Origin: a virus
Virus record (IMG/VR): IMGVR_UViG_3300037140_000062
Coordinates: 1 to 44,279 of that record
DNA: 44,279 nucleotides
Strand: one strand, 5' to 3'
Shown: piece by piece, positions 406 to 16,788 of the stretch
Position numbering within the stretch: position 1 is the first letter of the stretch
Layout of the letters: each line of letters starts with the position of its first letter
Notes under the pieces: generated by a model
The model's database searches: none
Told to the model about the DNA's origin: nothing
What the model saw: only the letters and a program-made list of their open reading frames with translations
Program-made: the position numbers and the translations under genes

Positions 406-1845
406 ATGCCCAAGGACGATCAATACCTTGAGCGGCCGCTCCCGGCCAATGTAGATGCGGAACGCCTTCTATTGGGCGCGATCATGCTCACCGACGAGCA
501 CTTCGATGCCGTGTCCCTGATCATCGATCGCGCTTCGTTCAGCCTAGAAAAACACCGCAGAATCTGGGACCGCATGAAGGATCTCCGGGAACGCGGAGAG
601 CGGATCGAGCGCGTGACTCTGATGAACGAGTTGATGCGGCAGGGACAACTTGAGTCAGTGGACGGCGCCGGTTACGTGATCTCTCTCGATGAAGGTCTAC
701 CGGGTTCTCCGAGGCCGGAGTCTTACGCCAGGATCGTTCAGGAGAAGTACGCCCTACGTAGCCTGATCTTCGCCGGCCAAAAGTTGATCGACAGTGCGTA
801 CATCGCGGAGTCTCAACCGGAGGACCTAGTCGCCCAACACACCGAAACCCTACTGAGCATTCAGGAGTCGCGAGCGGCGAAGGACGATGGGGGCAGGACA
901 CCGGAGGAAATCGTCACTCAATTCCCTGGCGGCATAAGCCAATTCCTAGACCCGAGCACGCGGTCTCAGGGCATGCCCACGGGCTTCACAAAGCTCGACG
1001 ACATGACCGGCGGCCTCAAGGAAGGGGAGCTAATCATCATCGCGGGACGACCGGGTCATGGAAAGAGCGCAATAAGTTTGAACATAGCGGAGCATCTTAC
1101 GCTGTCCCCACGGCAGCGCAAGGCGGTTGCCTACTTCTCCCTGGAAATGACGGGAGAAAGCTTACTGAATCGTTTGATCTGCTCGGTGGCGCGGGTGGAC
1201 CAGATGAAGTTCCGGGCCGGCTTTCTAACGAAAGAGGAACGCGAGCGCGTGCAGGCCGCTCTCTTCCGGGTGAATGAATCCCGCCTGAAGATCTACGACC
1301 GGGCCACTATCATGCTGGCGGATATTTGCGCCGCGATCCGTAAGTTAGTAAAGGAAGAGGGCTTACACTTGGCCATCGTTGACTATCTGACTCTGATCGG
1401 TTCGCACCGTCGCCGTGGCTACGAAAATAGAAATCAGGAAATCTCGGAGATGACCAGAACCTTCAAGCTATTGGCATTCGAGTTGGAGATTCCGATCATC
1501 GTCTTGAGCCAACTGTCTCGCGCCTGCGAGACGCGTCCAGGAGACCACCGGCCGATCCTTAGCGACTTGAGGGATTCGGGCAGTGTGGAGCAAGATAGCG
1601 ACATCGTTTTATTCGTTTACCGGGAGGAGTTGTACCAGAGAGACCGCGAGAACTTACGCGGTGTTGCGGAGGTTCTTGTGAGCAAATCCCGTAATGGTCC
1701 CGTGGGCAAGGTCCCCCTTCGTTTCTTGGGGGGATTCATTCGCTTCGAGAACCGCAGCGATGAAGTCTCCGCCGAGGAAGGCTCACCGGCTCCGGAGCCG
1801 AACACCAAGAGACGCCGTAAAAGGAAGGATATCGATGGCAACTAA
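406..1845 (+). CDS. dnaB: Replicative DNA helicase, DnaB family
   Basis: A 479-residue hexameric 5'-3' helicase that unwinds the replication fork. An N-terminal DnaB domain (about residues 11-115, starting LPANVDAERLLLGAIM) precedes a RecA-like ATPase core. Visible motifs are Walker A GRPGHGKS (214-221), FSLEM (244-248), a Walker B strand IVDYL (324-328), the LSQLSR motif (367-372) and the arginine-finger segment SKSRNGP near 427-432. Length matches the family (about 450-480), so it looks intact. No intein is seen. The last 11 bases overlap the start of the helicase-methyltransferase gene. A phage-encoded DnaB implies partly self-sufficient replication; no primase or polymerase is visible in this window. 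Confidence 0.95.
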   Translation: MPKDDQYLERPLPANVDAERLLLGAIMLTDEHFDAVSLIIDRASFSLEKHRRIWDRMKDLRERGERIERVTLMNELMRQGQLESVDGAGYVISLDEGLPGSPRPESYARIVQEKYALRSLIFAGQKLIDSAYIAESQPEDLVAQHTETLLSIQESRAAKDDGGRTPEEIVTQFPGGISQFLDPSTRSQGMPTGFTKLDDMTGGLKEGELIIIAGRPGHGKSAISLNIAEHLTLSPRQRKAVAYFSLEMTGESLLNRLICSVARVDQMKFRAGFLTKEERERVQAALFRVNESRLKIYDRATIMLADICAAIRKLVKEEGLHLAIVDYLTLIGSHRRRGYENRNQEISEMTRTFKLLAFELEIPIIVLSQLSRACETRPGDHRPILSDLRDSGSVEQDSDIVLFVYREELYQRDRENLRGVAEVLVSKSRNGPVGKVPLRFLGGFIRFENRSDEVSAEEGSPAPEPNTKRRRKRKDIDGN

Positions 1846-4243
1846 AAATCCAGTTCTGGACTCGCCACAGTTCATACCAGGACCAGACTCCCCGGCGTGG
1901 CTCGCGGCCATGGGGGATGCGGATATCATTGCCGAAAAATATCTCAACTACCAAAAGTATCTTGATGGCAAGCGCGTCAAGCACGAAGCGGCCGGCTTCC
2001 CGAATGCGCGATCCATAGAGCTAAACCCGAAGCTGTTCGACTGGCAACGAGATCTTGTTCATTGGGCGTTACGCGTTGGACGAGCGGATCATTGGTGTGA
2101 CTGCGGTCTCGGCAAGACCTTTCTCCAATTGGAATGGGGGCGCGTTGTACACGAGCAAACAAACAAAGATGGTCTGATATTAACCCCGCTAGCGGTTGCC
2201 AAGCAGACCAAGAGGGAGGGTGAGAAGTTCGATATCGGGGTTACGGTCTGCAAATCACAGGCTGACGTAAAACGGGGCATCAACGTAGCGAACTACGAAC
2301 GGTTGGACAAGTTCGACCCAGACAAGTTCGGATTCATTGTGTGTGATGAATCGAGCATCCTCAAGGCGTATGACGGGTCGACGCGCCAGCAGATAACCGA
2401 TTTTGCGGCCAAGATTCCGTACCGACTCGGAGCTTCCGCGACTCCAGCGCCAAATGATTTTATGGAACTGGGGACGCAATCGGAGTTTGTGGGCTCACTC
2501 AGTCGCGCGGAAATGCTCGCGATGTTCTTCGTTCACGACGGCGGAGAGACATCTAAGTGGAGACTGAAGAAGCACGCCGAAGATGAGTTCTGGAAGTGGA
2601 TCAGTTCATGGGCCGTCTATGTTCGCAAACCTTCTGATCTTGGATATTCCGACGAAGGTTTCGTTTTGCCGCCGATGGAGTTACACCATCACCTAGTCGA
2701 ATCAAAGATAGCCGTCGGGGATTTGTTCACGGTCGAAGCAAAGACGCTTCAGGATCGGCGCGCCGCCCGCAAGGATAGCATGGATCAGCGACTAGAAGTT
2801 GCCGCTAATCTCGCGTGCTCGAACGATGAGGCGTGGGTGGTGTGGGTGGGTCTGAACCACGAAAGCGAAGTGCTTTCCAGGTCCATTCGCGGAGCCGTTG
2901 AAATTACCGGCTCAATGCCGATTGAAGCCAAAGAGGAGGCTCTCGAAGCGTTCTCTAGCGGACAGGCGCGCGTAGCGGTCACCAAGGGATCGATTGCCGG
3001 GTTCGGGCTCAACTGGCAGCACTGCCGCAACATGGTTACCTTCCCGGATGATTCCTACGAGAGGTACTACCAACAATCCCGGCGCTGTTGGCGATTCGGG
3101 CAGACCCGAACCGTCCACAATCACATCATTGCATCGCAGGCCGAAGGATCGGTAGTCAAGAATATAGAGCGCAAAGAGGCCGATGCGAACGTGATGGCTG
3201 AGCGAATCTCGGAGCACATGAAGGATCTAATGAGATCCGAAGTAGTTGGAGTACGCCAAGGTGGAAGGGTTGCGGAATCGGATACCAAGAATGGGGGTGG
3301 GTGGAGGACGGTGCTGGGGGACGCAGTTCCTGCGCTTTGGGTTGAGCCAGATAATAGCATTGATTACTCTATTTTTTCACCGCCATTCGCATCGTTGTAC
3401 ACGTACTCAGACTCAATTGCGGACATGGGTAATTGCCGGACACACGAGGAATTCTTTGAGCACTTGCGTTTTCTGGCCCCGGAATTACTGCGTGTTTTGA
3501 AACCCGGACGACTCCTTAGTTTTCACTGTATGAACCTGCCGAAATCCAAGGAGCGCGATGGGGTGATCGGCTTGACGGATTTTAGGGGACAACTTATTAG
3601 ATTGTTTGAAAACGCAGGTTTCGTGTACCACTCTGAAGTTTGCATTTGGAAAAACCCCGTCACGGCGATGCAACGTACCAAAGCCATCGGGCTGTTGTAC
3701 AAACAACTTCGCAAGGATTCCGCTCTTTCGCGACAGGGAATACCAGATTACCTTGTGACAATGCGCAAGCCAGGGGTCAACACCTCGCCGGTGACTAAAG
3801 TTGCTCCGCCAGTAGGCTCGACCAAGACCCACGGTCACAAGATCGCACCGAATGAATTCGCGGTCGGGGAGTGGCAGAACTATGCGAGCCCAGTATGGAT
3901 GGATATCAACCCATCGGATACGCTCCAAAAGGAATCAGCGCGGGAGCAGGAGGATGAGCGGCATATCTGCCCGCTGCAACTTGAAGTCATCCGGCGCGCG
4001 ATTCGGCTCTGGACAAATCCTAATGATGTAGTCCTTTCGCCATTTATGGGGATCGGCAGCGAGGGCTATGTGGCGATCCAGATGCAGCGTCGGTTCCTGG
4101 GCGTGGAACTGAAGCGGAGTTATTGGCAACAGGCGGTCGCTAACTTAAAGGCCGCACATCTGGTATCGGCTAGCTTGTTCGACGGGATCGAAGAACTTCC
4201 CGAGGAGGACGACATCTTCGAGTCCGAGGATGCCGGGATTTAA
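1835..4243 (+). CDS. SNF2-type DNA helicase fused to a beta-class DNA methyltransferase
   Basis: An 802-residue two-domain protein. The N-terminal half is a superfamily 2 helicase: CGLGKT (motif I, 90-95), DESS (motif II, 171-174), SATP (motif III, 201-204), and a motif V/VI region GFGLNW...QQSRRCWRFGQ. The C-terminal half is an amino-methyltransferase with SPPF (515-518, catalytic motif IV) before SPFMGIGS (735-742, SAM-binding motif I), the beta-class order. It probably methylates adenine N6 or cytosine N4; the base is not decided by sequence. The start at 1835 is chosen because AAGGAAGG lies just upstream and it overlaps the dnaB stop; the frame is open further upstream to 1694 but that lies inside dnaB. 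No nuclease motif was noticed, so an anti-restriction or replication-linked role is more likely than restriction (inference). Confidence 0.9.
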   Translation: MATKNPVLDSPQFIPGPDSPAWLAAMGDADIIAEKYLNYQKYLDGKRVKHEAAGFPNARSIELNPKLFDWQRDLVHWALRVGRADHWCDCGLGKTFLQLEWGRVVHEQTNKDGLILTPLAVAKQTKREGEKFDIGVTVCKSQADVKRGINVANYERLDKFDPDKFGFIVCDESSILKAYDGSTRQQITDFAAKIPYRLGASATPAPNDFMELGTQSEFVGSLSRAEMLAMFFVHDGGETSKWRLKKHAEDEFWKWISSWAVYVRKPSDLGYSDEGFVLPPMELHHHLVESKIAVGDLFTVEAKTLQDRRAARKDSMDQRLEVAANLACSNDEAWVVWVGLNHESEVLSRSIRGAVEITGSMPIEAKEEALEAFSSGQARVAVTKGSIAGFGLNWQHCRNMVTFPDDSYERYYQQSRRCWRFGQTRTVHNHIIASQAEGSVVKNIERKEADANVMAERISEHMKDLMRSEVVGVRQGGRVAESDTKNGGGWRTVLGDAVPALWVEPDNSIDYSIFSPPFASLYTYSDSIADMGNCRTHEEFFEHLRFLAPELLRVLKPGRLLSFHCMNLPKSKERDGVIGLTDFRGQLIRLFENAGFVYHSEVCIWKNPVTAMQRTKAIGLLYKQLRKDSALSRQGIPDYLVTMRKPGVNTSPVTKVAPPVGSTKTHGHKIAPNEFAVGEWQNYASPVWMDINPSDTLQKESAREQEDERHICPLQLEVIRRAIRLWTNPNDVVLSPFMGIGSEGYVAIQMQRRFLGVELKRSYWQQAVANLKAAHLVSASLFDGIEELPEEDDIFESEDAGI
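1849..1862 (+). repeat. Dispersed palindrome copy (TCCAGTTCTGGACT)
   Basis: One of about 13 copies of the CAGTCCAG-NN-CTGGACTG family. It lies 14 bases inside the helicase-methyltransferase gene, read as N-P-V-L-D in that frame. The left arm is shortened to TCCAG, and the TT spacer reads in the direction of transcription. Confidence 0.7.
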
Positions 4244-6217: not shown

Positions 6218-7164
6218 TGGAAACTCTGGCAAATATATACTCGCCTAATACAAGCCTAGATGCTAGGCTTGGGGTACAAAGCTACGCCGAGGAGATTTGG
6301 TTCTTGCTACACCATTCTGAGGACACTGCACGCCGTACCCTAACCGTCACGTCCTACATGGATGACAGTGGTACCGACGACAATTCAAACATCGCGTTCA
6401 TCGGTGGAACCTTGATGAATCGCTCAGGGTTCTTGTCTTTTGAGGGGTACTGGAACCGCATATTACATGACTACCGGCTCGACTCAATCCACATGACGGA
6501 TTTTGTCCGACCATACGGTCGGCACATCGGGATGGGGCAGGAGATGAAGTTGTCACTGTTCTCCGATGTCACCAAGCAGATAAATGACCATAAGATTTAT
6601 AGCGTGGCCATCGGCGTCGCACAAGCGGACTACCGCTCACTTCTCTCTCAGCATGTCCATCGGCGATTGATTGGGCCTTACGGGTTGGCATTCCTATCGG
6701 CGGGGGTTCTGAATGGATGCGCGGCCGAATGGAGTGAGTACCGGGGAACGATTGCCTATTTGGTTGATCGGGGTCATTTCGAGGATCAAATTTTGGGGGC
6801 GCATGGCCTGCTCGTAGATATCGAAAAGAAGCTAGACAAGAAAGATGAACCTGCCGTGCACACTGGGGCCATCGCATTCGACACGGATGATAACAATGTG
6901 GCTATACAGGCAGCCGACGTGATCGCGTGGGCCTCCAGAAGAAACGAGGAGCCAGGAGGCTTGTCTGGCGAATTCGATCCGCTGCGCGGTATTTTTGAAG
7001 ATCAGTACACTCCTGACGGCAGACCGACAAGGCCACACTTCGGAATGGTGGTGGGGCGCGAATGGGTGGAGCGCTTCGCTGCCGACGTGAATAGATGGAT
7101 CGACAATAATGGAGAGATGCCGTCTTGCATATCCTCCCTAGAGCGGAGATTGGAACTCGAGTGA
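6217..7164 (+). CDS. DUF3800 family protein
   Basis: A 315-residue protein whose core shows the DUF3800 pattern: an acidic start motif YMDDSGTDD (about 47-54), a central His/Asp-containing region (DSIHMTDFVRPYGRH), and a late QAADVIAWA motif around 231-239. The family is thought to have an RNase H-like fold and is widespread as cargo in mobile elements, but its biochemical role is not settled. The start at 6217 is preferred over the upstream ATG at 6190 because it gives a TAATG overlap. About 45 residues before the acidic motif are extra compared with what I expect. An inverted repeat at 6251-6271 lies in this extension. It may be an acquired accessory (moron) gene. Confidence 0.8.
   Translation: METLANIYSPNTSLDARLGVQSYAEEIWFLLHHSEDTARRTLTVTSYMDDSGTDDNSNIAFIGGTLMNRSGFLSFEGYWNRILHDYRLDSIHMTDFVRPYGRHIGMGQEMKLSLFSDVTKQINDHKIYSVAIGVAQADYRSLLSQHVHRRLIGPYGLAFLSAGVLNGCAAEWSEYRGTIAYLVDRGHFEDQILGAHGLLVDIEKKLDKKDEPAVHTGAIAFDTDDNNVAIQAADVIAWASRRNEEPGGLSGEFDPLRGIFEDQYTPDGRPTRPHFGMVVGREWVERFAADVNRWIDNNGEMPSCISSLERRLELE
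6251..6271. repeat. Perfect inverted repeat, 9-base arms
   Basis: CAAGCCTAG, then ATG, then CTAGGCTTG: perfect 9-base arms around a 3-base loop, early in the DUF3800 gene. No T-run follows on either strand, so it is not an obvious intrinsic terminator. It could be a boundary scar, a protein site or an RNA hairpin. Confidence 0.6.
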
Positions 7165-7562
7165 GGGGCGTGACTCTCGAAGCGAAGTGCCGCGGCGTCC
7201 AGAGAATCGTCAAGATCGAGATCGACATCAAGCGGAACGAAGCCGGCAAGGTCCTAAGCTTTTCGGCCTACGATCCAGTTCTGGACCGGAGATTCATATC
7301 CTGCCCGGATCGTCCGAGCGACGCCGAGCGTGCCCTGAAGAAGCTGCATTCGGATATCTATCATGCGCGGGGAGAGTATGTGTATCAGAAACAAAAGGGG
7401 TTGTGTTTTTTCTGCGGAGTGAAGATGCCGGTCGACCAGTGGGAGGCGGATCACAAAGACTCGCGCGGCGCTCACGGGCGTGACGACTCGCCCTCAAACC
7501 TACAAATCTGCTGTACCGGTTTCAGTGGATGCGACGGCCATCGCCGCAAGCATGGGGGCTAA
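7161..7562 (+). CDS. HNH endonuclease
   Basis: A 133-residue protein using a GTG at 7161 that overlaps the previous stop (GTGA); a TTG at 7125 would add 12 residues and is less likely. The C-terminal half carries a zinc-supported HNH core: CFFC (82-85), EADHKD with the central D97-H98, the N113 position in SPSNLQICC, and CDGHRRKH near the end. The N-terminus is basic and beta-rich. HNH proteins in phages act as homing enzymes, packaging-associated nickases or DNA-repair nucleases. With no terminase beside it, an accessory or homing role is more likely. A palindrome copy falls at 7274-7287. Confidence 0.85.
   Translation: MRGVTLEAKCRGVQRIVKIEIDIKRNEAGKVLSFSAYDPVLDRRFISCPDRPSDAERALKKLHSDIYHARGEYVYQKQKGLCFFCGVKMPVDQWEADHKDSRGAHGRDDSPSNLQICCTGFSGCDGHRRKHGG
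7274..7287 (+). repeat. Dispersed palindrome copy (TCCAGTTCTGGACC)
   Basis: Inside the HNH gene, read as D-P-V-L-D-R, the same codon frame as the copy at 1849. The right arm carries one change at its end. Spacer TT is in the transcription direction. Confidence 0.65.
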
Positions 7563-7792: not shown

Positions 7793-7853
7793 GGACCGAG
7801 CACTGGCGATGCGATACGGCTTGGCGGCTTACCCGAAGCGGAGGGCGAAGTGA
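7674..7853 (+). CDS. Small basic hypothetical protein
   Basis: A 59-residue basic protein (MKDRPKDWATQMYHEGAW...). The ATG at 7674 lies 6 bases after a GGAGG, the best ribosome site in this interval; the ATG at 7668 is too close to it. Its TGA is overlapped by the GTG of the DUF3310 gene. The high Arg/Lys content could suit nucleic-acid binding, but no family is recognised. Confidence 0.55.
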   Translation: MKDRPKDWATQMYHEGAWIPRPVVDEGRKRGQRKLRSVNKDRALAMRYGLAAYPKRRAK

Positions 7854-8149
7854 ATCCACAATGTCTTTTGTGCGGGGCGATGCATAACGAGCCCGACGCC
7901 TATATCTGCCAACAATGCGTTGTTAAGTTGCAAAAGAAACGCGATGGCCTATCCGTCGAGTCCGATCCCGTCAACCCTGCGCACTATCAAGGCGACTATG
8001 TGATGCGGATTATCGAGGATTTCAAACTCGGGTTCTGTTTGGGCAACGTTGTCAAATACGTGCTGCGCGCCGAGAATAAAGGTCGGGTTGAGGATCTCAA
8101 AAAGGCATCCTGGTATTTGAACCGCGAGATCGCGAGGTTGGAGAAGTGA
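7850..8149 (+). CDS. DUF3310 family protein with N-terminal zinc ribbon
   Basis: A 99-residue protein with a GTG start in a GTGA overlap. It has four cysteines in two CxxC pairs at residues 5, 8, 20 and 23, probably a zinc ribbon. A DUF3310 core follows (about 40-97), recognisable by DPVNPAHYQG, the central GNVVKYVLRA and the final DLKKASWYLNREI. This small domain is common in phages and is of unknown function; it is often encoded among nucleotide-metabolism and replication genes. Its stop is overlapped by the GTG of a ruvC fragment. Confidence 0.85.
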   Translation: MNPQCLLCGAMHNEPDAYICQQCVVKLQKKRDGLSVESDPVNPAHYQGDYVMRIIEDFKLGFCLGNVVKYVLRAENKGRVEDLKKASWYLNREIARLEK

Positions 8150-8214
8150 TCGTTACGGTTGGGATTGACCCAGGAGCCGGTGGAGCACTCGCTCTATGGT
8201 CATATACCTCATAA
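8146..8214 (+). pseudogene. RuvC-like nuclease 5' remnant interrupted by a homing endonuclease gene
   Basis: A GTG overlapping the DUF3310 stop opens a 22-codon frame, MIVTVGIDPGAGGALALWS plus three residues, then TAA. GIDPG with a following ALAL stretch is the first strand of a RuvC-like resolvase, including the first catalytic Asp. The frame is cut off where the GIY-YIG gene begins (ATG at 8196, inside the remnant). A complete RuvC-like gene with a similar N-terminus (MISCVGIDPG) starts at 9041 on the far side. This looks like a gene broken or partly duplicated when the endonuclease gene arrived. Confidence 0.65.
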
Positions 8215-9044
8215 CCAACACTATCAACGGTAAATGCTACGTCGGGAAAACTGTTAGGACTATGAATTCTCGCTGGCGTGGGCACTGTAATGACTCTCGG
8301 CGCGCACGCAGTACTTCTCCATTGCATAGCGCTATAAGAAAATATGGCGAGCAGGCGTTTACGGTTGAGGCGCTAGCCCACACTGATGCTGCGGCGCAAT
8401 TGGATGACATGGAAAGAATTTGGATCTTTCTGATGAATTCTTTCCACGCCGGCTACAACCGCACTACTGGCGGTGATGGGGGATGGACTCCGAGTATAAA
8501 GACTAAACGAAAACTCAGGGTGTCTTCGACAAAGGTGTGGCTTAGGGATAAGGAGCGAATATTAAGCGCTCTCCGCGATCCAGAGGTACGCGGCAGAATA
8601 AGTAGGGCGACAAAAGCCAGATGGGAAGATCAGGAATCGCGAGATCGAATGCTCACCTCACTTCGGTCGCCAGCCGTACGGGAGAAGCTTAGCATTGCCG
8701 GGAAACTACTCTGGTCGCTTCCGTCCCACCAGGCAAAGATGAGGGCGATAATGGACAATCCAGAGCATCGTAAAAAACTGAGCGATGCCCAGAAAAAGGT
8801 TTCTCCGGAAGTTGTGAAGAGGAGGGCCGATAACTTGAGAGGTCGATCTCTCTCACCTGAGCACTGCTTGAATATCTCCCGAGGCGGAAGGGGGCTTAAG
8901 CGATCCATCGAAACAAGACTAAAAATATCCGCTGCGCAGAAACGGAGGGGGCCGGCGTCACCAGAGACGAGATTGCGTATGTCGATATCCGCCAAGGCCA
9001 GAATGGGCAACAGAGGGAGGAATGGGATTGGGAGATTTACATGA
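8196..9044 (+). CDS. GIY-YIG homing endonuclease with NUMOD3 repeats
   Basis: A 282-residue protein. The GIY-YIG nuclease domain opens the protein (IYLITNTINGKCYVGKT, with the second motif CYVGKT at 14-19), followed by the RWRGH arginine region (26-30) and a conserved Glu in DDMERIW (about 71-77). The C-terminal 150 residues hold repeated KLS/SPETR-type helices (for example KKLSDAQKKVSPE and SPETRLRMSISAKAR) typical of NUMOD3 DNA-binding modules. It looks intact. It starts inside a ruvC-like fragment and its stop overlaps the ATG of an intact RuvC-like gene, so the resolvase locus is its probable homing target. Confidence 0.88.
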   Translation: MVIYLITNTINGKCYVGKTVRTMNSRWRGHCNDSRRARSTSPLHSAIRKYGEQAFTVEALAHTDAAAQLDDMERIWIFLMNSFHAGYNRTTGGDGGWTPSIKTKRKLRVSSTKVWLRDKERILSALRDPEVRGRISRATKARWEDQESRDRMLTSLRSPAVREKLSIAGKLLWSLPSHQAKMRAIMDNPEHRKKLSDAQKKVSPEVVKRRADNLRGRSLSPEHCLNISRGGRGLKRSIETRLKISAAQKRRGPASPETRLRMSISAKARMGNRGRNGIGRFT

Positions 9045-9514
9045 TCTCCTGCGTCGGGATTGATCCCGGCACTGAGCAGTCCGCGATCGTAGCGTGGACT
9101 GGGACTCGGATAGGGTTGAAATTGTTCGCCAGCAACGAAGACATCATGAAGGTTCTCCGCCAGCGCCGCGACAATCCAGTGATTAACAAGTGGCCCCTGG
9201 TGATCGAGATGATTCACTCACAGGGTATGCCGGTTGGGGCGGAGACCTTTATGACTTGCGTCTGGATCGGGAGGTTCATGGAGGCGTACGATCCAACCCT
9301 TGTCCAGTTGGTCCGACGAGACCACATCAAGAACCAGATCTGCGGCACTCCCCGTGCCAATGATTCCAACGTACGCCAGGCGCTACTAGACCGCTTCGGC
9401 GGGTCCAAGGCAATCGGCCTGAAGAAGAGTCCAGGTCCCCTATACGGGATCAGCAACCATCTGTGGTCCGCTCTTGCGGCAGCAATCGCTTATAAGGAGA
9501 TGAAAGAACCATGA
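9041..9514 (+). CDS. RuvC-like Holliday junction nuclease (phage type)
   Basis: A 157-residue RNase H-fold protein. It begins with GIDPG (Asp8), followed by VIEMI with Glu56, a central RRDHIKNQICGTPRANDSNV segment and a C-terminal NHLWSALAAAIA (139-150). In RuvC the last motif carries Asp residues (HxxDA); here position 143 is Ser, so the usual final acid is not where expected. Some phage members may tolerate this, or another acid may serve. A GGGAG lies about 8 bases before the ATG. It probably resolves branched DNA from replication or recombination before packaging. Confidence 0.78.
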   Translation: MISCVGIDPGTEQSAIVAWTGTRIGLKLFASNEDIMKVLRQRRDNPVINKWPLVIEMIHSQGMPVGAETFMTCVWIGRFMEAYDPTLVQLVRRDHIKNQICGTPRANDSNVRQALLDRFGGSKAIGLKKSPGPLYGISNHLWSALAAAIAYKEMKEP

Positions 9515-9825
9515 CCGAAGCAGCCAAGAAAGCCTCTGACCGCTACCAGGCGGCGCTCCACGCTATCCAGAGCGGGGTTAATATCCTCATCCAGGAACAG
9601 CCATCGCAACGAGTAACAGGAGAATGCTCTCCGAAACATTTGAGGGTTGGTGTCAATTCGGCGTTGCTCGATAGCGCCGCGCTGGCCAAACTCCTCATGG
9701 ATAAGGGTGTGTTTAGCGAGGAAGAATACTTTACGTATCTCGCCGAGTTCGCCGAGCTTGAGGTTAAGGATTACGAGAAGAGACTGACCGACATGATGGG
9801 CGGCCGTCGGGTGACTCTGGCGTAG
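9511..9825 (+). CDS. Hypothetical helical protein
   Basis: A 104-residue protein beginning in an ATGA overlap with the RuvC-like gene. It is predicted to be mostly helical, with no motif that I recognise. The pattern AALAKLLMDKGVFSEEEYFTYL resembles small phage proteins with a regulatory or structural helical bundle, but this is only a resemblance. Confidence 0.6.
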   Translation: MTEAAKKASDRYQAALHAIQSGVNILIQEQPSQRVTGECSPKHLRVGVNSALLDSAALAKLLMDKGVFSEEEYFTYLAEFAELEVKDYEKRLTDMMGGRRVTLA

Positions 9826-9827
9826 CC

Positions 9828-10025
9828 ATGGACGTCTACGCGGCTCCAGATTTGCGCTGTTCTCGCTGCGGAGAACAGTTGCAGATGGATTCCTTTGGTC
9901 CATTCCTTTACGGTTGGTTCATGCTTGTCCGTCACTCTGCCTACCGGAGTTGGGGAGTAGCCTGCCCGCAGGAGTCTCAGCGCTTCTTCTGGAATCCGGA
10001 AGAGCACCGTGAGCGGCATGCGTAA
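9828..10025 (+). CDS. Small hypothetical protein with a CxxC pair
   Basis: A 65-residue protein starting two bases after the previous stop. It has CSRCGEQ near residue 11 and a later single cysteine, so a full zinc ribbon is uncertain. Aromatic-rich middle section (FGPFLYGWFML). No family recognised. Its last codons overlap the ATG at 10018 of the next gene. Confidence 0.5.
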   Translation: MDVYAAPDLRCSRCGEQLQMDSFGPFLYGWFMLVRHSAYRSWGVACPQESQRFFWNPEEHRERHA

Positions 10026-10365
10026 GGTTATGCCACAGAGTCAAGAGCAGAAGCGCGAAAAAGATCGGATACGCCAACAGGAGCGCCGGGACCGAGGGTA
10101 CACTAATACCGCTCCTTCGCACGAGATCCCTTCTGGCGTTTTGCTAAAGCCTATCACCAACTTCCCTGGATATTGGGCGGCTTCGGATGGAACAATCTGG
10201 AGTCAATGTAATTTTCATGGAGGACTGAGGGATGTGTACCGAAGACTTAGCCCTCGTGGGGATAAAGATGGGTATCTGTCAGTGACGCTCAATAGAGATG
10301 GTTTGCGGACGACCAAGAGAGTATCCCATATCGAGCCTCTGCAAGGGAAAGTATCGTGCTGTTAA
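10018..10365 (+). CDS. Truncated NUMOD4-type (HNH homing endonuclease) protein
   Basis: A 115-residue protein. The N-terminal 35 residues are highly charged (KREKDRIRQQERRDRG). Then comes a NUMOD4-like module: LLKPITNFPGYWAASDGTIWS, then RRLSPRGDKDGYLSVTLN. This is the first half of many phage HNH homing endonucleases. The expected HNH core (a histidine-rich hydrophobic helix, then H-N-H) is missing: after TTKRVSHIEPL the frame ends. It therefore looks like a decayed or C-terminally lost homing endonuclease. A GTG at 10009 is an alternative start. The stop shares a base with the DUF1643 start (TAATG). Confidence 0.65.
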   Translation: MRKVMPQSQEQKREKDRIRQQERRDRGYTNTAPSHEIPSGVLLKPITNFPGYWAASDGTIWSQCNFHGGLRDVYRRLSPRGDKDGYLSVTLNRDGLRTTKRVSHIEPLQGKVSCC

Positions 10366-11598: not shown

Positions 11599-13746
11599 TC
11601 AATGTGTGCCCAGTCCAGAACTGGACTGCGGCGGTTGCGGCTGGGTGGATACGCCGGGGGGTTGGGGTTGCTGGGGCCGCCCGCCCGCTACGAGTTTCTT
11701 GAATTCCTCCGTGGGGCGAGTGACGGTCTTTTTCACGCCTGCACTATCCACAACTTCGTAGGTGGTAGTGCCCTTGGTCTCGTCTACCGCCTTCACTGTG
11801 AATTTATCACCTGATGGTTTAGTGAAGGTGGTCCCCGGCAGCTTAGCCATGTTATTGATGTCTCGGAGGTCCGCCTGCGAGTGATAGGTGACTTGTCCGG
11901 TTTCGGGATCACGGACCGGGACCATATCCTGTACGGCGGTTCCTGGCTGCTTAATTGGACCGCTAGCGGTCGGGAGTTGGCGCTCGCCTACCTGCTGACC
12001 TAGCCCCGCTCCAGGGCGCGGCCCTGCGCTTGGGACGGCCCCAGACGTATCCGGTGGCGGCGGAGTCACTATCGGTGGCGCTGGGAGTTGACGGCTTGCT
12101 GGCGCCCCAGGAACTTCAGCCGCACCAGCCTTCAGCATCCTGGTTTGCGGCAACGTAGGATCGATAGGACCGCTGGTGTCCGGTGGCGGCGGAGGCCTGA
12201 GGGACGCTGCCCCAAGTTGTGGCCTTCCCATCTGCCCACCCCTTGGGTTGTACCGAACGGTGGAAGGCCTTGGTAGTGGTTCCGGCTTCCCGGCGTTAGC
12301 CAATGCACGCCGGATAAGGGGGTCTATTTTACCGCCGAATGCACCCGTGATATTTGATAACCCCTCGTCAAATTTCCCCTCCGCTAATTTTAAGGGTAGA
12401 CCCGCGGTTCCAGCGGCCGCCTTCCCCAACGCTCCGATCTTGGTAACTGGCTTCTCTTGCAGCGAAGCCTTTCGTCTTTTATCGGCTGCGTCAAGGATTT
12501 CGGTCAAGTCTCCGGTTTGACTTTGTATTGCTTGCGGACCGGCACCTTCATTCTCGGGATCTAGAGTGCTGTAAAATTTCTTAGCAATAGCATCTCGCTG
12601 CGCCTTGACTACGGCCTGTGGGCTGCCGCTCGTCACCGAAGCTTGTTGCTTGCCGGTAGCCTGATCGTAGAATGAGCGGAGTTCTGCATTTTTCTCTCGC
12701 AGGAATTGACGGTACTTATCCACGGTGAATGTCTTTCCCCCGTACGCAGATTCCACCTCTTTCATGATTCGCTTTGCGGTAGTTGGATTTTCTAGTTTTA
12801 GTGTTTCCGCGAGTGCTTGTCTTGTGGCTTCCACAATCGGATCGCCAGAGATTGCGACGCCCATCTCGCGCTTCGGCTTCATCCACTCCTCTAGTGCATC
12901 CTGGTGGTTCTTAATCCCCCTTTTAGCCGCCGCGATTAAATCCTCCACCCCATTAATATTGGGGTCGATGTCGTGCAGGGTGGCGAGCGTTTGCGGAATC
13001 GTCTCTGTCGGCATAATATCCAGGGACTTCGCTATTGCTACGTGAGGGTTAGCGCCGAACACTTTGACAGCGGATCGGTTTACCGCCGCGCCGCCAGTTT
13101 TTAGAACCGGCACTGCCTTTTCAATGGCTTTTGGAAGGAGCGCTGCGGCAGTAGCTTGACCTGCGGCCCTAGATGGATTTGGGTGCGCTCCAGGATCAAG
13201 GATGTTCCCGTACTTGTCAAAAGTGGGCTCTCGACCGCCCGCCGTATCCGCGATAGGCCCTGCAATTTGGCCGATCATTGGGACTGCGGCACCAGCTTGT
13301 CCGGCAGCTTCTACGTACCGTTTCTGTCGGGCAAGATCAACGGCCTTCTTCCCCCGCGACACGGCGTTATCGACCGCTCCCGTAATCAGACGGCCACCGG
13401 GAGTGCTCTCTACGGCATCTCTGACAATCTCCCCCACGCCCGCCCCCGGCTTAGGACCCGTACTAACGTTGGGTAGCGCTTCCACCGCCATCTCGGCGAC
13501 ACCCTTGGCGGTATCCCACACTCCACCAGCAAATTGCCTTGCCTGATATCCGAGTCCGGTTGACCCTGGAGGCTGCGGCTGGAGCGGAGACTTAGAGAAA
13601 TACACCCGATCCTTGTAGACCGGGTATTTCTCGATCATGGCCTTAGCTAATTCCTCATCAGGCACATCCTTGTATTCCGGGTGTCGGCCCTTGACCTGTT
13701 GTGAAAAGTCCTGGTACGCGATGCGATCAGTGGTCTGGTCTGCCAC
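11599..13746 (-). CDS. Large internal virion / DNA-ejection-type protein
   Basis: A 715-residue protein (GTG start, three bases after the 1012-residue gene). The N-terminal 45 residues (YQDFSQQVKGRHPEYKDVPDEE and on) match a short module common at the start of phage virion-associated proteins. A Gly/Ala-rich region follows (about 60-210, TAKGVAEMAVEALP...), possibly amphipathic or membrane-active. A helical middle and a long Pro-rich C-terminal third come next, with repeated PPPPDTSG and QPQPPG motifs. Two large adjacent proteins of this kind near a lysozyme-like domain protein recall podovirus ejection proteins. The C-terminus ends in a palindrome copy (codons reading QSSSGLGTH). Confidence 0.65.
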   Translation of the reverse strand: MADQTTDRIAYQDFSQQVKGRHPEYKDVPDEELAKAMIEKYPVYKDRVYFSKSPLQPQPPGSTGLGYQARQFAGGVWDTAKGVAEMAVEALPNVSTGPKPGAGVGEIVRDAVESTPGGRLITGAVDNAVSRGKKAVDLARQKRYVEAAGQAGAAVPMIGQIAGPIADTAGGREPTFDKYGNILDPGAHPNPSRAAGQATAAALLPKAIEKAVPVLKTGGAAVNRSAVKVFGANPHVAIAKSLDIMPTETIPQTLATLHDIDPNINGVEDLIAAAKRGIKNHQDALEEWMKPKREMGVAISGDPIVEATRQALAETLKLENPTTAKRIMKEVESAYGGKTFTVDKYRQFLREKNAELRSFYDQATGKQQASVTSGSPQAVVKAQRDAIAKKFYSTLDPENEGAGPQAIQSQTGDLTEILDAADKRRKASLQEKPVTKIGALGKAAAGTAGLPLKLAEGKFDEGLSNITGAFGGKIDPLIRRALANAGKPEPLPRPSTVRYNPRGGQMGRPQLGAASLRPPPPPDTSGPIDPTLPQTRMLKAGAAEVPGAPASRQLPAPPIVTPPPPDTSGAVPSAGPRPGAGLGQQVGERQLPTASGPIKQPGTAVQDMVPVRDPETGQVTYHSQADLRDINNMAKLPGTTFTKPSGDKFTVKAVDETKGTTTYEVVDSAGVKKTVTRPTEEFKKLVAGGRPQQPQPPGVSTQPQPPQSSSGLGTH
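11611..11628 (-). repeat. Dispersed palindrome, perfect copy (CAGTCCAGAACTGGACTG)
   Basis: Perfect 8-base arms around AA (TT on the coding strand). It overlaps the last codons of the 715-residue ejection-type gene, read as Q-S-S-S-G-L, and ends 48 bases before the next gene start. It directly abuts a QPQPPQ-coding unit. Identical to the copies at 18279, 31396 and 36784. Confidence 0.9.
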
Positions 13747-15984
13747 GGCTTATTTCTTCCTCGACGGCAGGTTTAATCCAAGGGGATTATTGGCGTCAGC
13801 AGGAGCCCCGTCCGTTCCCGGCGGCTGGGGTTGGTTTGCGCTCGGATTCATTCCCGGAAGACCATACACGCCCATCTGTTTAAGAAATGACTGCCGTTTG
13901 CGATCCACGAAGGGGACTACAATATCTTGAATCGCTGACCTGAAGTTGTCCGGGCTGAGATTAGGATTGGTCATGTCGAAACCCATCTCGCGGCTCATGT
14001 CGGTAGCGGAACCATACCCTAGGGCACCAGACAGTTCATCAGCAAAGGCGGTACGCGCTGTCGCAAAGTTGGAATACTTCTGCCCACCAAAAGCTATACC
14101 TGCGGGGATGACAGCTTTGTTTAGGATTGTCGCCCCGGTGCGGGTCGCGGCATCGGACGCTTCTAGTAGAGAGTCAACTCCCATCTTCACGTTATCCAGC
14201 GATGCTAACTGCTGCTGGACCCGTGGATTCTTAGCAAGGCTATAGCCCATCTCGAAAGCGGCGGGGTTGAAGTTGGGATTCAACTCGCGCGCCTTATCGT
14301 AGATATCCATCTTCTTCGCCACATCGCGACTATAGGCAGTAAGCGACCTGAATTCATTCATAGTCAATCGGCCATACGCGAGATCCTGGGCGACTCTAAA
14401 TTCCCGGCTACCCTGCGTGATCGGCTTCGGATTGGCTTCATCGGCGGCTTTGGTCGCCCGCGACTTTGCTGCCTCGTCGGCTATTTGCTTTTCTTTGAGA
14501 TACAGATCCGAAGCACGTTTTTTGATCTGAGCATCTGTTTCGTTGGGGAACTGGGCACGGAATGCTTCCTCATTCTGCTTCATCTGTCCGGTATCGCCAC
14601 CCGCTCCTTCGCCCAGAGCCTTTTTAGCATTCGCTGCTGAAACCATATCTTCAGCTTGACTGAGAGGTACATTCTTCGCACGAGCTACGTCCGCAATGTT
14701 CTGCTCGCGAGCACCCGGCTTCTCCCCAATCCGGGAAGGATCAATAAACTCTCCAGTCTTGGCGTCATACGATCCGGCCTTGATGCCCCAGCGGTTCGGC
14801 GCGACATCCCACGTCTTGCGCGGCTTCCCGTCGATGTATTCAAACCCAGCCTGATCCTTGACAACCTTGCGAGTTCGGAGCTTGTCCAGGATGTTCATGT
14901 CAAGCGGCTCTACTGGCGGCTGCGGTTGGTCTGGAGTCGCCGCTACCTGAGGATGCGTTCCCGGAGGCTGTGGTTGGGTACTCTTCTCGGACGCGCCTCC
15001 GATCTTGGAACTGCTCTCCTGGCCGATCTGGAACTGAGCCAAATAGTTTCGGTCGATCTTGGAAACCGGCGTATCCGGCTTGACTCCCAGTTTCTTGGCG
15101 GCGTTCGCGACGTAAGTAGCAGTATCGTTCTCCGTGGGCGGCGCATACTTGCCGATGTAGGCGGCAAGCGTCATCCCGCGATCCGCGTCCGTCTTGATCT
15201 GGCCGAGCAAAGCCTTGTACCCGGCTTCTGGAGTCTTAAATTTGGCGTATCCGCCTTCGCCCTCTTTGGCCCCATTTTGCCCCACTAATCTCAGGTTCCC
15301 TGGATTGTTGTTTTTGAAGGCGAGCTGCGTGACGCCCGGTTGTCCGGGAGCTTCCTGGGGAATGGTGATAGCAACACCATTCTTCGACGTGGGCGCGGCA
15401 GGCGGTTCAGCCTGTCCCTTTTGCCACTTTTCCTGAGCGCTTCCCGGAGGGCCGTCCCAGCCCATTTTGTTATGTAGCGTTTGGTCGAACTTGTCGGCAT
15501 CCGCTTCCGTAGGGAATTTACCCATGTGCTCGCCGGTCTTGTGATAGTGCTCCAGCGCCGCTTCATTGGTGACTTGCTTGCCATTGATGATCGTCGGTAG
15601 CAGAACGCCGTGGCCTTCTTCCTCGATAGTCATGGTGCGAACGGTGCTACTGGTACCGTCCGGGTTTTTTACGACCGGCCTATTAATCAGATTGATATTC
15701 CCCGCTTCTATCAATCCAGGAACATTCTGATATAGTTCCGCCGTCGTGGTCGGCTTTCCTTGGTCGGGCTTGGCGGGTGCCGCCAGTCCAGGACTGGACT
15801 GTGTGGGCGGCGCGCCGGGAGGTTGCGGCTGCGCGGCGGCCGGAGCCGTCCCAACAGCCGGGTCCAGTGTCGTCGGAATCCCCGGCGCTCTACTGGCCTG
15901 GGGTGCTCCAGGAGGGGCCGGTTGGGCGCTGGGAGTCTGAGTCTGGGGTTGCGCCTGTTGGCTCGCCCCAGGCGGCTGTGGCTG
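11626..15984 (-). repeat. QPQPPG linker module, eight copies in two adjacent virion genes
   Basis: A six-residue QPQPPG (or QPQPPQ/QPQPPV) unit is coded at 11626-11643, 11653-11670, 13564-13581, 13816-13833, 14911-14928, 14959-14976, 15814-15831 and 15967-15984. Codons differ between copies at third positions, so the unit is kept at protein level. Copies lie between domains as Pro-rich linkers. Two of them stand next to palindrome copies (11611 and 15784). Confidence 0.8.
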
Positions 15985-16788
15985 CAATCCAAAGCGTTTG
16001 TCGAGGTCGTTCCCGGCCTTGATGAAGTCCTCTTGCTCTGGGGAGAGTCTTTGTTGCTCCGGTGGATTAGCGTAATGCTGCGTAGCCTCATTGAATCGCT
16101 TCAACCCGGCTCCATCCCCGAACTGCTTATCGACTTGCGCTAGCGCTGCCCGACCCTCTGGTGAGGTCTGGACTGCCTCTGCGAGCGTCTGTTTATTGAC
16201 CGGCTGATTGGATTTCCTAAGCGCATCAACTGTTTGTGCTATTACTCCAAGAATCGGATCGTTAGCCTGCGTAGACTGATACTTCTTCGCTGCTTCAACC
16301 CTGGCCGCCGCCATCTCCCCCATGAGAGACTGCATGGCCTTGGGGTCCTGCTTAGACTTCTTTACGTCACCGCCAGCCAAACCAGTGATTATGTGACCCA
16401 TCGCGTCCAGGATCGGATGCTGCCCCTTAGTCTTTTTGATATCCTGAGCCGCGTCCGAGAAGAGAGTCTGTTGGAACTTCTGACCGAACTGGGCCTTCGT
16501 AACATCGTCTACGTGAGGATCGTTCTGAAGCTCCTGGTAGACACCCATCATCGCGCTGGTGGTCTTGGCTTTTTCCTTCTCTGCACTTAAGGCTGCCATC
16601 ATCCTGCCTTGCCCGAGCCCGGCAAGGAAACGATCAGCGATCCCCAATAGATTCCCGGTCTTCCCAGCGTAGCCAGAAAAGGGAGTGTTCGACTGGTGCG
16701 GAGCGCTTACAATTGTTGGGTCGATTGCGTCGGCGAACGGTCCAGTTAGAGCCTTTGGCCCATACGGGTTTGCTTGAGTGTCCGCCAT
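13750..16788 (-). CDS. Large internal virion protein with lysozyme-like (transglycosylase) domain
   Basis: A 1012-residue protein. Order: helical N-terminus (1-270); Pro/Gln linker with QPQPPG units; a phage module around 350-440 with NRPVVKNPDGTSSTVRTM, VLLPTIINGK and a GEHMGKFPTEADAD motif; another linker; and a lysozyme-like domain (about 480-600) starting KNNNPGNLRL and continuing FKTPEAGYKALL and ATYVANAAKKLGV. The NNPGN signature marks phage peptidoglycan hydrolases that open the wall during infection. The last 370 residues are helical and unrecognised. With the 715- and 261-residue neighbours this forms a likely ejection-protein set. ATG at 16788, one base after a palindrome copy. Confidence 0.75.
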   Translation of the reverse strand: MADTQANPYGPKALTGPFADAIDPTIVSAPHQSNTPFSGYAGKTGNLLGIADRFLAGLGQGRMMAALSAEKEKAKTTSAMMGVYQELQNDPHVDDVTKAQFGQKFQQTLFSDAAQDIKKTKGQHPILDAMGHIITGLAGGDVKKSKQDPKAMQSLMGEMAAARVEAAKKYQSTQANDPILGVIAQTVDALRKSNQPVNKQTLAEAVQTSPEGRAALAQVDKQFGDGAGLKRFNEATQHYANPPEQQRLSPEQEDFIKAGNDLDKRFGLQPQPPGASQQAQPQTQTPSAQPAPPGAPQASRAPGIPTTLDPAVGTAPAAAQPQPPGAPPTQSSPGLAAPAKPDQGKPTTTAELYQNVPGLIEAGNINLINRPVVKNPDGTSSTVRTMTIEEEGHGVLLPTIINGKQVTNEAALEHYHKTGEHMGKFPTEADADKFDQTLHNKMGWDGPPGSAQEKWQKGQAEPPAAPTSKNGVAITIPQEAPGQPGVTQLAFKNNNPGNLRLVGQNGAKEGEGGYAKFKTPEAGYKALLGQIKTDADRGMTLAAYIGKYAPPTENDTATYVANAAKKLGVKPDTPVSKIDRNYLAQFQIGQESSSKIGGASEKSTQPQPPGTHPQVAATPDQPQPPVEPLDMNILDKLRTRKVVKDQAGFEYIDGKPRKTWDVAPNRWGIKAGSYDAKTGEFIDPSRIGEKPGAREQNIADVARAKNVPLSQAEDMVSAANAKKALGEGAGGDTGQMKQNEEAFRAQFPNETDAQIKKRASDLYLKEKQIADEAAKSRATKAADEANPKPITQGSREFRVAQDLAYGRLTMNEFRSLTAYSRDVAKKMDIYDKARELNPNFNPAAFEMGYSLAKNPRVQQQLASLDNVKMGVDSLLEASDAATRTGATILNKAVIPAGIAFGGQKYSNFATARTAFADELSGALGYGSATDMSREMGFDMTNPNLSPDNFRSAIQDIVVPFVDRKRQSFLKQMGVYGLPGMNPSANQPQPPGTDGAPADANNPLGLNLPSRKK
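15784..15801 (-). repeat. Dispersed palindrome copy (CAGTCCAGGACTGGACTG)
   Basis: Both 8-base arms are perfect; the spacer is GA on the + strand, TC on the coding strand. It lies inside the 1012-residue gene in a Pro-rich linker, read as Q-S-S-P-G-L, close to a QPQPPG unit. Confidence 0.85.

Follow-up and report, generated by a model that had tools for sequence, protein, structure and literature searches.

In phages, endonuclease genes are regarded as markers and drivers of the boundaries of gene exchange, the replaced gene being normally gone. In phage T4, the available part of one account (PMC2988022) describes segC, segF, mobA, mobC and mobE as promoterless, free-standing endonuclease cassettes; it also describes co-conversion of flanking markers. 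In segC, segF, mobA and mobC the start codon lies inside the end of the upstream open reading frame (ORF), with overlaps of 11–24 bp (PMC2988022). Barth et al., in the portion of their text covered here, report core genes bracketed by endonuclease genes and HEG-islands located at exchange boundaries (PMC10448857).

We analyse a locus in a 44,279-base IMG/VR virus record (IMGVR_UViG_3300037140_000062; the whole record is referred to as the window) where a GIY-YIG endonuclease gene follows a short piece of one ruvC gene and precedes a complete ruvC gene. It is highly probable that this endonuclease gene, whatever the direction of transfer, stands at the join between two RuvC subfamilies, here called type B (the piece, from a gene termed ruvC-B) and type A (the complete gene, ruvC-A). 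As in the T4 cassettes, the start of the endonuclease gene overlaps the upstream ORF, here by 19 bp; unlike these cassettes, which are found between phage genes or inside one, it is flanked by two subfamilies of one enzyme (comparison with the available part of PMC2988022). The same source offers a second parallel in mobE within nrdA of phage Aeh1 and mobA within T4 gene 60, where an endonuclease gene also lies inside a conserved enzyme gene. However, nrdA and gene 60 are split in two parts whereas the window keeps 18 codons and then a whole gene of the other subfamily (PMC2988022, same portion). Like the genes of HEG-islands, ruvC-A has an endonuclease gene upstream (GIY-YIG) and an HNH-like ORF downstream; in contrast to them, a donor with high nucleotide identity was not found for the window, and the exchanged tract therefore cannot be delimited (PMC10448857, in the portion covered). 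By analogy, the locus fits the frame of the T4 cassettes and the HEG-islands as these two partly available sources present them (PMC2988022, PMC10448857).

No report of this arrangement or of the ruvC case was found in the open-licence literature, including the available portions of PMC10448857, PMC2988022, PMC12724721, PMC4759559, PMC6105707, PMC8306868 and PMC7468147. That endonuclease genes occur at exchange boundaries is known already, and in this respect the window is a clear but ordinary case. What makes it a neat instance is that a non-orthologous gene has left a remnant next to the one that replaced it: 18 codons of the replaced gene seem to be retained, and the exchange can thus be read from one genome. 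Furthermore, the locus suggests ruvC as an endonuclease-associated cargo and provides a testable site.

Layout of the junction and the endonuclease gene

Five ORFs follow one another from 5′ to 3′: a DUF3310 gene (7850–8149, plus strand; 99 aa, GTG start), a 22-codon ORF termed the stub (8146–8214, plus strand; GTG start), the GIY-YIG gene (8196–9044, plus strand; 282 aa), a RuvC-like gene (9041–9514, plus strand; 157 aa) and, downstream of it, a 104-aa ORF (9511–9825). Successive ORFs overlap by 4 nt throughout, except for the stub and the GIY-YIG gene, which share 19 nt. The GTG of the stub overlaps the DUF3310 stop codon (GTGA), the endonuclease ATG (8196) is located inside the stub, and the endonuclease stop (9042–9044) overlaps the ATG (9041) of the RuvC-like gene. 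The original prediction had placed a 22-codon N-terminal RuvC fragment before the GIY-YIG gene, with the ATG of the latter inside the fragment, and a complete RuvC-like gene at the endonuclease stop; all these elements are found where it had put them.

The upstream partner at the junction is recognized by PF11753 (E=6.4e-14, 52 bits against a cutoff of 24) and PHROG 236 (1.5e-24). The N-terminal part of this protein is cysteine-rich, with two CxxC pairs (window 7850–7950), and gives PHF5 and DZR_2 model matches below cutoff; it lies outside the DUF3310 domain match, which spans residues 42–91.

Judging by its profile matches, the 8196–9044 product is a GIY-YIG homing endonuclease. The GIY-YIG domain exceeds the curated cutoff (PF01541, 1.8e-8, 35 bits against 22.6) and the protein matches the PHROG 314 homing endonucleases (1.1e-34) as well as the TIGR01453 group I intron endonucleases (70.2 bits, cutoff 56.05), while a NUMOD3 match stays below cutoff (E=0.11). 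A relative of the endonuclease adjoins a head gene, not ruvC, in Xanthomonas phage PhiXhv-2 (one of 397 phage records). No group I intron was matched in the window by Rfam at gathering scores, nor in 7800–9900 at E<=10, where a single 13-bit snoRNA match (E=7.7) was returned. Outside the ORFs a group I intron is excluded because the overlaps leave no room for one.

Owing to the same overlaps, there is no intergenic stretch in which the endonuclease gene could have its own promoter; it would thus be a free-standing gene that lacks one. The stub would serve as its start region, just as the 3′ end of the endonuclease gene would serve ruvC-A. Within the stub, the Gly-Gly codons contribute GGTGGAG (8179–8185, plus strand), 10 nt before the endonuclease ATG, with a predicted anti-SD duplex of -5.6 kcal/mol; within the endonuclease 3′ end, GGGAG (9030–9034, plus strand) lies 6 nt before the ruvC-A ATG with a duplex of -7.3 kcal/mol. 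Compared with the window median of -3.0 and the 5th percentile of -7.4 kcal/mol, both are suggestive rather than strong start-region signals. The case for GGTGGAG as the ribosome-binding site of the endonuclease is weak to moderate, and GGGAG is a possible one for ruvC-A.

The stub and the intact gene among RuvC subfamilies

The type-A set comprises 80 loci collected with internal conserved peptides as query, the N-terminus being left out, and the type-B set 80 loci collected with peptides from an alignment whose N-terminal residues had been cut off. DPGxxx[STC][GA] is present in 87/87 type-A frames, of which 80 come from these loci, 6 from elsewhere and one from the window, and DPGxxG[AG] in 0/87. 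The latter motif is found in 93/93 type-B frames in which it is readable; four of the 97 frames (L260, L244, L278 and L237) have no readable N-terminal motif and were excluded. Either the motif or the stub had served to select 17 of these 93, so that the independent count is 76/76. Profiles over 21 columns were built from redundancy-reduced sets of 68 type-A members (window included) and 25 type-B members. Profiles over 18 columns were restricted to rows that fill all of them, 29 of type A and 10 of type B.

The stub translates as MIVTVGIDPGAGGALALWSYTS and its motif reads DPGAGGALALW. Codons 1–18 (8146–8199) score 27.0 bits with the type-B N-terminal profile and are the top match of the window. 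Over 21 columns, the stub obtains +22.5 bits with the type-B profile and -24.1 with the type-A profile, and the smaller profiles over 18 columns give the same outcome (21.9 and -12.2). The intact gene shows the opposite pattern, with +25.7 for type A and -11.0 for type B over 21 columns. Both score under the minimum of their own type (39.0 for B and 33.9 for A, the lowest training-member scores), and appear to be outlying members for which low scores are expected. Among its first 18 residues, the stub has 12 in common with the nearest type-B genes; the figure is 8 for the ruvC of the window itself, and no other type-A gene exceeds 6.

Both sequences match the Holliday junction resolvases of PHROG 1770, the 22-aa stub alone with E=0.009 and the 9041–9514 product with 1.1e-15, and within this group they belong to two separable subfamilies. 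By tblastn the stub finds six phage records, PD491P1 among them (E 0.2 to 6, weak singly), three annotated as resolvase and three as hypothetical protein. The match is the start of a gene in 4/4 inspected records, and 3/3 proteins scanned among those four match PHROG 1770 strongly, including two annotated as hypothetical. An exact degenerate pattern based on GIDPGAGGALALW of the stub has no match in viral contigs. A looser pattern yields 15 loci, with the motif near the ORF start in all 15 and a PHROG 1770 match in 7/7 scanned; these loci are not counted among the 76 motif-independent genes because the motif itself picked them.

After the tryptophan at codon 18 (8197–8199) the stub reads SYTS and stops, and codons 19–22 are not RuvC-like. 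In type-B genes, what follows the hydrophobic run is, for example, W/Y-D-T. As the endonuclease ATG occupies 8196–8198, the end of type-B similarity and the endonuclease start fall within a few bases of each other. The rest of ruvC-B is absent from the window, which contains one PHROG 1770 match and in which no B-type frame was found. These sequence comparisons identify the stub as the 5′ end of a RuvC subfamily B gene, with a similarity greater than chance would give.

The intact protein begins MISCVGIDPGTEQSAIVAW. Pfam RuvC does not match it, and no PDB sequence is matched by a profile in which it is combined with 40 relatives (41 sequences in all). The AlphaFold2 model made from those 41 sequences (pLDDT 95.4, pTM 0.90) finds Deinococcus radiodurans RuvC as its best Foldseek match (7xhj, E=1.3e-8, TM 0.70), followed by RuvC of Thermus, Pseudomonas and E. 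coli among the other top matches. According to this model, the 9041–9514 product is a RuvC fold.

The RuvC active site comprises four residues: Asp, Glu, Asp or His, and Asp. In the type-A alignment A5 (41 sequences), D8, E56, D108 and D117 are invariant; position 140 holds H or D, and position 143 holds S, A, P or Q, in 41/41 each. The type-A subfamily may possess a non-standard active site. By eye, the equivalent of position 143 is acidic in aligned type-B members, and a C-terminal [DE]A motif is observed in 24/25 members of the reduced type-B set.

With respect to interpretation, the original prediction holds in that the RuvC origins of the stub and of the intact gene differ and the homing gene is located exactly at their join. 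Its wording of a split or duplicated locus and of a different allele finds no support. A split gene does not agree with a window that contains nothing further of the gene to which the stub belonged and a single PHROG 1770 match. Duplication does not agree with N-termini that belong to different subfamilies: three full-length type-B members are 19–22% identical to the window's RuvC. Since the stub fits subfamily B and the intact gene subfamily A, at about this level of identity where compared, the two are not alleles.

A 17-nt imperfect repeat, GTTGGGATTGACCCAGG and GTCGGGATTGATCCCGG (8158–8174 and 9053–9069), was considered as an element end and rejected because GIDPG coding is common to both copies and the repeat is no better than others in the window.

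Junctions that lack the endonuclease

Besides the window, three RuvC loci carry DUF3310 directly before ruvC, as the uninterrupted junctions sought by the original prediction, and none of them is a close relative. In L180 the DUF3310 gene precedes a type-A ruvC with an ATGA overlap; in L265 and L283 it precedes a type-B ruvC with an ATGA overlap and TAATGA, respectively. The available flanks of these three loci contain no endonuclease of the window's GIY-YIG family and no second RuvC N-terminus, and their DUF3310 genes are by eye distant from that of the window. DUF3310–ruvC is thus a natural, uncommon junction which is open to either type. The relation between stub and DUF3310 in the window is the same as that between ruvC-B and DUF3310 in L265. 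DUF3310 is rarely found beside ruvC (a RuvC N-terminus occurs in 0/80 loci chosen by DUF3310 alone), so the proposed resident order DUF3310–ruvC rests on these three loci.

Among 393 loci (3.16 Mb, window included; not drawn at random, with flanks of 2–10 kb), two RuvC N-termini are found only in the window. A short RuvC N-terminus that stands alone is likewise confined to the window, with the one exception of L121, where the contig ends within the gene. Endonuclease-free relatives with both N-termini, which would have spoken against the original prediction, do not occur among these loci, none of which is a close relative covering the junction.

No relative of the phage spanning the junction was found in viral and genome contigs or in phage records. 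By megablast, bases 1–25000 of the 44279 have no match in 50,697 phage records. L292, a 10.5-kb contig found via the helicase-methylase protein (76% identity), has no DUF3310 or RuvC match, and a RuvC match occurs in 0/98 loci from the helicase-methylase search and the genome-contig scan (18 loci from the latter). In four named phages, no gene annotated ruvC neighbours DUF3310; in FBPa8, one of the four, the third gene upstream of DUF3310 encodes a homing endonuclease.

Origin of the arrangement

The locus looks like a recombination scar at the DUF3310–ruvC junction. Our preferred reading, to which we give a probability of about 0.5, is a homing-linked exchange in which a resident ruvC-B was replaced by the endonuclease gene together with ruvC-A, 18 codons being left as the endonuclease leader. 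The ancestor would have carried DUF3310 and then directly a type-B ruvC. A donor phage with the endonuclease gene just upstream of its own type-A ruvC would have been present in the same cell, and the recipient would have been cut or recombined early in ruvC-B. Repair would then have brought in the endonuclease gene and ruvC-A. Given the near absence of DNA similarity between the two resolvase types, the left end would have joined at codon 18 of ruvC-B and left the 18-codon stub. Translation of the stub would still start via the DUF3310 overlap and would now provide the start region of the endonuclease gene, whose 3′ end would provide that of ruvC-A. It is presumably the endonuclease that cut ruvC-B, at a putative cleavage site, and brought ruvC-A.

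The direction of transfer is uncertain. The start-codon overlap of the stub with DUF3310, as seen for ruvC-B in L265, and the single illegitimate join required on the left favour a resident ruvC-B. Base composition leans weakly the other way, towards a resident ruvC-A with the endonuclease and the stub incoming: GC3 is 0.707 in ruvC-A and 0.697 in dnaB, a gene of the phage's own, compared to 0.539 in the endonuclease gene and 0.444 in the 18-codon stub, which has too few codons to weigh much.

It is thus possible, though unlikely, that ruvC-A was the resident and that the endonuclease gene, carried with the piece of ruvC-B in which it sat, landed between DUF3310 and ruvC-A. The native-like GC3 of ruvC-A would be explained, and L180 demonstrates that DUF3310 can directly precede ruvC-A without an endonuclease. 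However, this course needs two joins located exactly at start codons (DUF3310 stop with stub GTG, endonuclease stop with ruvC-A ATG) and a donor with a ruvC-B broken at codon 18, while the overlap of stub and DUF3310 is what a resident ruvC-B would be expected to show. We also consider it rather unlikely that separate events were involved, i.e. that mosaic recombination replaced ruvC-B by ruvC-A, or produced a tandem which then decayed, and that the endonuclease gene was inserted later without being the cause. Either RuvC type does occupy the junction in the absence of the endonuclease (L180 versus L265 and L283), but no tandem ruvC pair is found in the 393 loci and their 2–10 kb flanks. Moreover, only a few bases separate the end of type-B homology from the endonuclease start codon, which makes one event simpler than two.

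Two further explanations were considered and rejected. A chance or convergent short ORF, only 18 codons long and with 12/18 residues identical to the nearest real type-B gene, is very improbable as the origin of the stub, which scores 27.0 bits when the best of 12 order-1 Markov shuffles of the window reaches 7.2. The stub is also plausible as a gene remnant in its start position, its frame and the overlap at its start codon, and the inspected phage matches (weak, four at gene starts, three scanned and assigned to PHROG 1770) point in the same direction. Splicing of the stub to a downstream coding sequence, through a group I intron or an intein, would agree with the endonuclease passing the NCBIfam cutoff for group I intron endonucleases. 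It can nevertheless hardly be credited: the Rfam scans are without a group I intron, a type-B continuation is absent downstream, the stub frame is closed at 8214, and the intact gene is provided with a start and a GIDPG motif of its own.

A bolder reading, in which the GIY-YIG endonuclease targets conserved ruvC active-site codons in phages and brings with it a resistant, non-orthologous ruvC of its own, is doubtful. If true, a selfish gene would drive the turnover of the phage Holliday-junction resolvase family, the very enzyme class able to finish the crossover form of the endonuclease's homing.

Other ORFs in the vicinity resemble endonuclease genes. Downstream of ruvC-A, a 118-aa ORF (10009–10365) with a low GC3 of 0.508 shows weak similarity to HNH homing endonucleases (PHROG 959, 1.8e-5) and overlaps with its end the beginning of a DUF1643 gene (10356); it is perhaps a second, truncated endonuclease gene. 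As an HNH endonuclease ORF (7125–7562; PHROG 2118, 7.8e-8) is also present upstream of the junction, the ruvC region holds up to three endonuclease-like genes in ~3.2 kb. Further away, an 849-aa protein (1694–4243) appears from its translation to combine a SNF2-type helicase part with a DNA methyltransferase part, and has many viral relatives at 53–76% identity. On the minus strand, the translations of two adjacent large proteins (11599–16788) both contain repeated QPQPPG-like proline-rich stretches.
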